Below, piece by piece: positions 51,939 through 60,320 of a stretch of 64,000 bases of DNA (positions are counted from its first letter, which is position 1; every line of letters begins with the position of its first letter). Position numbers and translations under genes: made by a program. Origin of the DNA: Shouchella clausii. Its GTDB lineage: Bacteria > Bacillota > Bacilli > Bacillales > Bacillaceae_D. The notes beneath the pieces were generated by a model, which saw only the letters and a program-made list of their open reading frames with translations, was not told where the DNA came from and did no database searches. The DNA is taken from the NCBI RefSeq assembly GCF_002250115.1, contig NZ_CP019985.1, forward strand, positions 3,100,001-3,164,000, given 5' to 3'.

Positions 51939-51961
51939 TTTATTTGATTTATCCTTAACGA

Positions 51962-52482
51962 CGCGGGGTGGAGCAACGAACGAAGTGAGTTGTCTCGACG
52001 CAACCAAGCATCCCCGAATAAGCTAGCAGAGGAAGAGACAGTCATCCTCTTTCAAACAATAGCACAGCAAATCCTATATTCATTAGTAACGGCGCGGGGT
52101 GGAGCAACGAACGAAGTGAGTTGTCTCGACGCATCAAACATCCCTGAATAAGCAAGCAGAGGAAGAGACAGTCATCCTCTTTCAAACAATAGCACAACAA
52201 ATCCTATATTCATTAGTAACGACGCGGGGTGGAGCAACGAACGAAGTGAGTTGTCTCGACGCAACCAAGCATCCCGAATAAGCAAGCAGAGGAAGAGACA
52301 GTCATCCTCTTTCAAACAATAGCACAGCAAATCCTATATTCATTAGTAACGACGCGGGGTGGAGCAACGAACGAAGTGAGTTGTCTCGACGCAACCAAGC
52401 ATCCCGAATAAGCTATCAGAGGAAGAGACAGTCATCCTCTTTCAAACAATAGCACAGCAAATCCTATATTCATTAGTAACGA
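51962..52482 (+). repeat. Four tandem chimeric tRNA-fMet-derived units
   Basis: Units start at 51962, 52093, 52223 and 52353 (131, 130, 130, 130 bp) and run up to the intact tRNA-fMet at 52483. Each begins with the first 14 nt of that tRNA (CGCGGGGTGGAGCA, to the D-loop). A ~116-nt body follows: ACGAACGAAGTGAGTTGTCT, then CGACGCA, AGCAGAGGAAGAGACAGTCA, and AATCCTATATTCATTAGTAA just before the next unit. The copies are nearly identical. They cannot fold as tRNAs because the anticodon arm, T arm and 3' acceptor are missing. A GAG-TTGT-CTC hairpin or an alternative TGTCTC/GAGACA stem is possible. Confidence 0.93.
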
Positions 52483-52559
<77 letters not shown>

Positions 52560-52742: not shown

Positions 52743-53053
52743 GCGGGTGTAGTTTAGTGGTAAAACCTCAGCCACGAGCAGAGACATCCGTGAGAAACTT
52801 CGAGTTGCCTCGACGCAAAAACATCGTTGAGTAAGCGAGCAGAGGAAGAGGCATGTTGTTCGGTGCTCAGAAAATGAGGAAAGTCATTATTAATATGCGG
52901 GTGTAGTTTAGTGGTAAAACCTCAGCCACGAGCGAAACATCCATGAGTAAACTCCGAGTTGCCTCGACGCATTCACATCGCTTGAATAAGCGAGCAGAGG
53001 AAGAGGCATGTTGTTCGGTGCTCCAAAAATGAGGATAGTAGTTATTAATATAT
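52743..53053 (+). repeat. Two tandem chimeric tRNA-Gly-derived units
   Basis: Units start at 52743 (154 bp) and 52897 (157 bp) and lead into the intact tRNA-Gly(UCC) at 53054. Each has the first 31 nt of that tRNA (through the first base of the anticodon loop, ending CTCAGCC), then a body. The body starts ACGAGC, contains CGAGTTGCCTCGACGCA and GCGAGCAGAGGAAGAGGCAT, and ends in an A/T-rich segment before the next GCGGGTG. The two copies differ at many sites, so they are older than the fMet array. The body is related to that of the fMet units. Confidence 0.92.
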
Positions 53054-53124
53054 GCGGGTGTAGTTTAGTGGTAAAACCTCAGCCTTCCAAGCTGATGATG
53101 TGAGTTCGATTCTCATCACCCGCT
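53054..53124 (+). tRNA. tRNA-Gly (UCC)
   Basis: Acceptor GCGGGTG pairs CACCCGC; anticodon loop CTTCCAA gives UCC. CCA not encoded. Confidence 0.95.
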
Positions 53125-60151: not shown

Positions 60152-60320
60152 ATGATGGTAAAGGGAGAGACTGGGCATTTACGCCCAGCGCCGAAGGAGC
60201 AAGCATTTTGCGAATCTCTCAGGCAAAGAAGACTTTTACTTGACGCATCTCTGGAGAGCGCTTTTTATAAGCCACCTACGAAGACAATTCGGCTTTTGGC
60301 CGAGGGAAACTTTCTGGTTC
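60152..60320 (+). promoter_or_regulatory. Glycine riboswitch (gcvT motif), tandem aptamers
   Basis: The sequence closely follows the B. subtilis gcvT leader. GGGAGAGAC and the P1 partner AATCTCTCAGGCAAA enclose CGCCGAAGGAGCAAGC in the first aptamer. GACGCATCTCTGGAGAGCG and CCACCTACGAAG...GGCCGAGGGAAACTTTCTGG form the second. The TTGATT at 60121-60126 may be the -35 of its promoter. Glycine binding is expected to prevent the downstream terminator and turn on gcvT-gcvPA-gcvPB. Confidence 0.95.

Follow-up and report, generated by a model that had tools for sequence, protein, structure and literature searches.

Elements of the IS200/IS605 kind carry hairpins, generate no target duplication, have their target beside one end and make use of internal guide pairing, and the known introns of tRNA genes lie in the loops of the tRNA. 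The rtT repeats at E. coli tyrT are tRNA-derived tandem repeats carrying the 3′ end of the adjacent tRNA; they are known from that one locus and are not known to have a shared mobile body. Double-hairpin or repetitive hairpin elements are described from fungal and sponge mitochondria (Allomyces; Paquin et al. 2000 as cited in PMC2800124), and the passages of PMC2800124 that deal with them take the lack of flanking duplications to suggest an RNA intermediate. From bacteria, an extract of PMC3984707 describes group I introns inserted within tRNA genes and one of PMC2267715 describes the Bhal-1 repeat of B. halodurans (74 bp, 36 copies).

Units before tRNA-fMet and tRNA-Gly

The window (the whole stretch of 64,000 nt of the Shouchella clausii genome analysed here) contains four head-to-tail units directly before tRNA-fMet, beginning at 51962, 52093, 52223 and 52353 and spaced by 131, 130, 130 and 130 bp, as the original prediction had it. 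Both the unit starts and Tandem Repeats Finder bear this out, the latter reporting a single array at 51956–52496 (period 130, 4.2 copies, 96% matches, score 1008). Each unit consists of 14 nt of the tRNA-fMet front, CGCGGGGTGGAGCA, which is exact in all four, followed by a 64–65-nt element and by 52 nt starting with GTC. This GTC is the next three nucleotides of tRNA-fMet and the rest is a degenerate spacer or leader; the ~116-nt body first proposed thus holds the element together with the spacer. The repeated TAACGA reported just upstream of the front is found in three units, the second reading TAACGG.

All of the features lie on the forward (+) strand. In unit 1 the tRNA-fMet fragment, reaching to the D-loop, is at 51962–51975 (an exact match to 52483–52496), the 65-nt element with a short hairpin 1 at 51976–52040 (E 2.6e-14) and the GTC continuation and spacer, assigned from the sequence and from the continuation test over relatives described below, at 52041–52092. 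E values here refer to R1, a covariance model based on 17 sequences of the element. The fragments of units 2 to 4 (52093–52106, 52223–52236 and 52353–52366) match the tRNA-fMet front exactly, their 64-nt elements are at 52107–52170 (E 2.3e-15), 52237–52300 (E 3.9e-13) and 52367–52430 (E 2.5e-12), and the same 52-nt part follows at 52171–52222, 52301–52352 and 52431–52482. The intact tRNA-fMet(CAT) is at 52483–52559 (ARAGORN; Rfam tRNA).

Two further units (52743–53053) precede the tRNA-Gly(TCC) downstream, each with 31 nt of its front and a related element of 80–81 nt. In the first, the fragment, which reaches to the anticodon loop, is at 52743–52773 (an exact match to 53054–53084) and the 80-nt element, with a full hairpin 1, at 52774–52853 (E 5.1e-16); in the second, the fragment is at 52897–52927 and the 81-nt element at 52928–53008 (E 2.4e-18). 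The intact tRNA-Gly(TCC) is at 53054–53124 (ARAGORN). The units are dead tRNA copies made up of a 5′ part, a conserved insert of 64–82 nt, usually a few more tRNA nucleotides and a degenerate spacer. Elsewhere in the window, a glycine riboswitch aptamer is found at 60152–60245 (+) with 67 bits (Rfam).

Across the 4.5 Mb of this genome, assembled as one contig, R1 finds 14 elements (E ≤ 0.01), all of them before tRNA-fMet or tRNA-Gly. They form arrays of four, four and two units before three tRNA-fMet genes and of two and two before two tRNA-Gly(TCC) genes; at a third tRNA-Gly(TCC) locus there are no elements. The recurrence of the arrangement at three other tRNA loci of the genome, together with the fact that 172 of 397 genomes from the order contain the element, indicates that the array is not a matter of chance and makes the assembly artefact that the original prediction had allowed for unlikely.

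Insertion sites in tRNA genes and in other repeats

Searching all the loci collected with a strict motif, and hence without decayed copies, gave 272 distinct elements; 17 without a recognisable start were set aside, leaving 255. A tRNA 5′ fragment lies directly 5′ of the element in 213 of these and the next tRNA downstream is the matching intact one in 211 of the 213; many loci had been collected because of tRNA-fragment matches, and the larger counts describe the sample. The expected match between the fused fragment and the next intact tRNA is borne out for 211 of the 255 elements with a defined start. Of the two fragments whose matching tRNA is found only upstream in the locus, that in L220 may be no real exception, as another tRNA-Gly front follows there. 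In the other (L138, Geobacillus zalihae), the usual order is reversed: the element lies downstream of the intact gene, in a tRNA-Arg(TCT) copy with its 3′ half retained and anticodon bases missing. This copy and that in L099 are the two most complete interrupted copies seen; both are without the anticodon bases, and removal of the element restores a callable tRNA in none of the 255 cases. The remaining 42 elements comprise 27 within 250 nt of a sense tRNA, with the fragment altered or unrecognised, 13 in loci without a tRNA and two more than 250 nt from one. None of the 255 was placed near antisense tRNAs only, and wherever the element was found at a tRNA its orientation is sense.

A motif scan of named genomes gave at least 119 stretches; in the 80 of these that were examined a fragment was found at 85 of 109 elements, from 50 organisms in 21 genera. 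Random points near elements were fragment-like in 45 of 633 cases. A control with shifted starts (376 of 968 fragment-like) is uninformative, as a start moved upstream still ends in the fragment.

The element is hosted by tRNAs for Gly, Asn, Lys, Thr, Phe, Arg, Asp, Met and fMet and in one case Ala, ten types in all, which rules out an oddity of tRNA-fMet. Insertions are found at positions 14–18 (D-loop), 24–28 (the junction of D-stem and anticodon stem) and 31 (anticodon loop) of the tRNA, and at 12 in three Phe cases; the same tRNA may be hit at different positions (Lys at 17 and 26; Phe at 12, 24 and 26). Beyond the element the same tRNA resumes, for example (the slash marking the element) TAGCG/GTTAACA in Asp, CAGCA/GGTAGAGC in Lys, GAGCA/GAGGACTG in Phe and CAGCG/GTAG in Asn. 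In tRNA-fMet the continuation is GTC or GCC, both of which exist in fMet genes, and unit and intact gene sometimes disagree within a locus. Over the 213 elements the mean identical run of the continuation is 2.67 nt, compared with 0.42 nt at other positions of the same tRNA, and it is at least 3 nt in 92; for tRNA-Gly (73 of the 213) it is weak, with a mean run of 1.1 nt. The body is therefore an insertion inside tRNA sequence, as first proposed, and ligation of a 5′ tRNA fragment to the body is ruled out. The further proposal would have the insertion itself regenerate an intact tRNA; a tandem copy taking the hit is the simpler account.

The insertion site shows a sharp rule: AG is found at positions −4 and −3 in 20 of the 21 combinations of tRNA and position, against a background of 0.133 (P 5e-17, a value that assumes independent sites, some of which differ by one position only). 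There is no visible short target duplication at the tRNA sites.

The element is also found without a tRNA fragment, an outcome held beforehand to count against an insertion linked to tRNA genes if widespread. The cases are in Evansella and Fictibacillus, in which the element breaks up a different repeat, and this speaks for mobility. In Evansella it lies inside a dispersed REP-like repeat, directly after ..GACTCCAGCG, and in that genome GGCGACTCCAGCGG also stands uninterrupted at 52 sites, against none for a reversed-pattern control. Six interrupted copies of this type were compared by eye; the repeat resumes for at least 2 nt and then diverges in five and does not resume in the sixth (L167). 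The context is that of L109, L123, L167, L179 and L281 and is shared by L205; L269 and L273, also from Evansella, are ordinary tRNA-Gly units. In Fictibacillus the element lies 3′ of CAACAGCC in another REP-like repeat (L174, with a similar context in L212), beside fMet and Phe units. The intergenic repeat of Evansella (L288–L307, from Evansella vedderi) is itself modular, with other hairpin modules, such as GCGACGAGTAATCGCAGGAGCA and a block of CCAGGATGGCGACATTACGCCGTTGCCC, nested at various places.

Predicted structure and distribution of the element

The element is predicted to consist of ACGAGC, hairpin 1, CGAGUUG and an outer stem UGYCYC/GRGRCA that encloses GACGCA, hairpin 2 and AGAGGAA. 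For scoring, the first 60 of 115 sequences (78–83 nt, filtered) were used, a test favourable to the structure, which had been drawn from the same family. The outer stem is 99.2% paired, and two of its pairs show double-sided changes, one in 19 sequences and the other in 18. For the 16-pair structure as a whole the covariation score is 0.140, against 0.086 ± 0.007 in shuffles (none of 500 as high) and at most 0.103 when the structure is slid along the sequence. Also above all 500 shuffles are the proportion of cells paired (91.2% against 88.5%) and the number of cells with a change on both sides (40 against 15.0). The number of pairs with such a change (4 against 3.3; 172 of 500 shuffles) and of further pair types (11 against 10.9; 307 of 500) is not above shuffles. 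The tandem-GA stem is 100% paired and, being nearly invariant, uninformative, and the hairpin-2 stem is only 63.7% paired. A functional pairing of the acceptor strand with CAUCC of the body was considered and rejected; it is good for fMet and Gly, but CAUCNNUGA belongs, by eye, to the hairpins whatever the tRNA.

Some elements have an extra tandem copy of the second hairpin (2488–2521 in L096; the Asn unit of L221), which implies that the halves of the element can duplicate separately. A second element family, distinct in sequence and similar in layout, CG[AT][CT]CGA..GCGTACCGC..GCGGGACG, is present in 16 copies (L077, L081, L083, L087, L100, L154, L177, L192, L196, L201, L202, L208, L209 and L214), ten of which by eye follow AGCA in a tRNA-like front; in L081 and L100 the two families share one broken tRNA-Phe.

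In a survey of the order, R1 matched in 172 of 397 genomes and 80 of 135 genera (E ≤ 0.001), with 11 candidates scored per genome, so that copy numbers are lower bounds. In a sample of the phylum, at the stricter E ≤ 1e-5, it matched in 2 of 398 genomes, the present one and another of the same order. Among the stretches listed from the motif scan of named genomes are some from Geobacillus, Parageobacillus, Anoxybacillus, Aeribacillus, Shouchella, Halalkalibacter, Evansella, Cytobacillus, Neobacillus, Fictibacillus and others. With at most 150 candidates scored per genome (E ≤ 0.01), there are 112 R1 matches in Evansella vedderi, 33 in Geobacillus zalihae, 18 in Fictibacillus gelatini, 7 in Halalkalibacterium halodurans and 2 in Pseudalkalibacillus salsuginis. 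The 7 matches in the halodurans genome, set against 36 copies of Bhal-1, make it unlikely that the element is Bhal-1, as judged by the description in the extract of PMC2267715.

Two plasmids of Anoxybacillus amylolyticus, NZ_CP015439.1 (L073) and NZ_CP015440.1 (L074), have units inside tRNA clusters, before tRNA-fMet, -Gly(TCC), -Asn and -Thr; such plasmid-borne clusters are a possible route for horizontal spread. Searches of phages and plasmids gave mostly tRNA matches among the best 20 of each. Four IMG/VR contigs that match the motif (L224–L227) hold 10–15 tRNA genes around the elements, in the order of bacterial clusters, and are probably host sequence beside proviruses. No Rfam family reached its gathering threshold on the element in the window, in three loci of the same genome or in seven loci of relatives; on or beside it only tRNA and rRNA did so, matches below threshold being weak. 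In keeping with the earlier statement that no described element of this form was known, we found no description of the family in the open-access literature searched.

Array turnover, possible movers and known counterparts

The number of units differs between congeners, as the original prediction expected. At the Ser(TGA)–fMet site in 13 congeners, the present genome (G000) has four units. G011 has one full and one truncated unit and G006 a single one; the unit is truncated in G010 and degenerate in G007, and G009 may keep a remnant; none was recognised by eye in G001–G005, G008 and G012. At the Gly(GCC)–Gly(TCC) site, for which G006 is outside the comparison, there are two units in G000 and in G011, one in G012 and a deleted one in G007, and none was recognised in G001–G005, G008, G009 and G010. 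The 25-nt leader of G010 at this site equals the leader before the first unit in G011, which makes it a clean empty, or emptied, site.

Fragments closely follow the tRNA of their own genome. In 163 of 211 cases a fragment is identical to its intact tRNA, the mean identity being 0.985, and at three variable tRNA positions fragments carry the base of their own genome in all 33 comparisons. For Gly this agreement (17 of 17) exceeds that in 200 permutations (at most 15); at the two Asn positions it is 8 of 8, a value that permutations also reached. It fits concerted evolution over the shared front. The mean identity of elements is 0.690 between different genera and tRNAs, 0.719 between different genera at the same tRNA and 0.741 within a genus at different tRNAs, and for 35 of 85 elements (18.8 expected) the most similar element of another genus sits at the same tRNA. 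Thus lineage and tRNA both matter; the likeness above chance at the same tRNA across genera implies that many copies are old and inherited, and part of the distribution is shared within a lineage.

The arrays hold one to five recognised units per intact tRNA, and one locus (L104) has eight R1 matches. The similarity of the leaders of the first recognised unit and of the intact tRNA falls from 0.86 at −1 to 0.38 at −20 (control 0.66 and 0.28) over 158 pairs, nine of which are identical over 40 nt and probably do not involve true first units. This gradual fading rules out a duplication that begins exactly at the mature tRNA 5′ end. The distance from element to next tRNA, counting spacers of 21–74 nt only, has a median of 45 nt (IQR 39–48). 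As to the TATATT proposed as a −10 sequence, all four fMet units of the window have a 9-of-12 promoter match; over relatives such matches occur in 17 of 141 distinct spacers, above chance (7.6 ± 2.5 in shuffles), and a promoter within each unit is rejected as a general rule.

We explain the repeated body as a family of non-autonomous double-hairpin mobile elements of 64–82 nt whose broken tRNA copies are tolerated and have been multiplied by recombination, and give this reading a probability of roughly 0.62. Comparison of sequences documents that the element is inserted and by what target rule, that its outer stem is paired, that it occurs across the order, that sites are found both occupied and uninterrupted, and that copy number changes between congeners. 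An element would insert after AG-N-N, mostly in the D-loop, the junction of D-stem and anticodon stem or the anticodon loop of a tRNA gene, and the insertion would survive where a tandem intact copy follows; it is because such a copy follows (211 of 213) that broken ones would be tolerated. The broken copy would then lose its 3′ half, unequal recombination over the shared tRNA front would add or remove units, and gene conversion would keep the fragment equal to the neighbouring tRNA. What speaks against this reading is the failure to find an autonomous copy or mobilising gene in the collected loci, the likeness of elements at the same tRNA across genera, the weak continuation at tRNA-Gly, the two structure measures that do not rise above shuffles and the poorly paired hairpin-2 stem.

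It is fairly unlikely that the units are instead functional leader RNAs, in which a tRNA front and a structured domain control the transcription, processing or stability of the tRNA. Such a role would suit the strong conservation of motif and stem, the sense orientation before a tRNA, the clustering of elements by tRNA type between genera, the excess of promoter-like matches and, within the spacers of 21–74 nt counted, the distances to the next tRNA; but the same operons lack units in several congeners, the same tRNA is entered at different positions, the element is also found in unrelated repeats and the spacer is, by eye, unconserved in sequence. Tandem duplication alone, with the body a local sequence captured once, amplified and immobile, is compatible with the arrays and with the gradual fading of the leader similarity, and is very unlikely since it is already contradicted by the sharing of one body among ten tRNA types, several insertion positions and repeats that are not tRNA.

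Precise insertion, with resumption of the tRNA, and the preference for loops shared with known tRNA introns recall a splicing intron that is removed from the transcript with restoration of the tRNA. We find this hardly believable, however, given that removal of the element never restores a tRNA, that even the most complete copies lack the anticodon bases and that an intact copy almost always follows. Attachment sites left by phages or islands through tRNA-targeting integrases would account for tRNA fragments, a known outcome of integration in the part of PMC9897764 on the subject. Such a footprint is nevertheless highly improbable for one conserved insert of 64–82 nt at many tRNA types in multi-copy arrays, with fragments that are 5′ pieces; and the four viral contigs matched hold whole clusters of tRNA genes around the element.

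Neither an autonomous copy nor a mobilising gene was seen in the collected loci, where 270 left halves have a right half within 75 nt, three have none and 14 right halves stand alone. Among the 13 congeners, a Y1 transposase is found in six of eight with elements and one of five without, and a reverse transcriptase in five of eight and one of five, respectively. The Y1 match is absent from G009 (2 elements) and G011 (12 elements) and present in the element-free G003; G006, with 11 elements, has no reverse-transcriptase match. From G011 and G006, neither enzyme is strictly required where the element persists. Single-stranded DNA transposition of the IS200/IS605 kind in trans, with two hairpins, no target duplication, the target next to the left end and an internal guide, would draw on the pairing of UGYC with the GRCA end and its covariation, on the complementarity of YG to positions −3 and −2 of the flank and on the co-occurrence of Y1. 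No full-length relative with the same ends was seen in the collected loci, however, and the Y1 distribution has the exceptions just given; we regard it as distinctly unlikely.

UGYC may possibly serve as a guide, able to pair both to the host sequence beside the element and to the GRCA end of the element itself. It can pair with positions −3 and −2 of the flank in 186 of the 213 elements, and with −1 also in 108; this is only suggestive, because a G in the flank can pair with both forms of Y, and AG is a frequent motif of D-arms. A rather unlikely extension is a self-guided minimal mobile nucleic acid, whose UGYC would pair with the AG-Y-N target and then with its own GRCA end, inserting into tRNA loops as RNA (by reverse splicing and reverse transcription) or as a single DNA strand. 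If this were true, the second family, CG[AT][CT]CGA..GCGTACCGC..GCGGGACG, would make self-guided elements a general class of tRNA-lodging hairpins in bacteria.

On the preferred reading, a conserved family of short, apparently mobile hairpins is spread over an order, lodged in copies of the cell's most conserved genes. The arrays of tRNA fronts in tRNA clusters could confuse both tRNA annotation and tRNA-fragment sequencing. With occupied and empty sites, a sharp target rule and a possible guide, the old question of how small hairpin elements without a transposase move becomes directly testable.

By the family rules as generally understood, the element shares with IS200/IS605-derived miniature elements and REP sequences its hairpins, the lack of target duplication, a target beside one end and a possible internal guide; it differs in that no transposase-bearing relative is present in the collected loci and Y1 genes co-occur only loosely. 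Like the rtT repeats of E. coli tyrT, the units are tandem repeats with a piece of the adjacent tRNA; the tyrT piece comes from the 3′ end, and those repeats are known from a single locus and are not known to share a mobile body. Set beside group I introns, the element is much shorter; it has no intron match in Rfam, and its removal never restores the tRNA. By form, the nearest known kind would be the mitochondrial double-hairpin element, which in the passages of PMC2800124 concerned is likewise a short non-coding hairpin repeat of suggested mobility, varying in number between close relatives and lacking flanking duplications. Here too copy number differs between close relatives (13 congeners), the tRNA resumes without a repeat and the Evansella repeat resumes for at least 2 nt in five of six copies (by eye). 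Compared by description and not by sequence, the present element differs from the mitochondrial ones in being bacterial, strongly conserved in sequence, subject to a target rule and lodged mainly in broken tRNA copies that precede intact ones.
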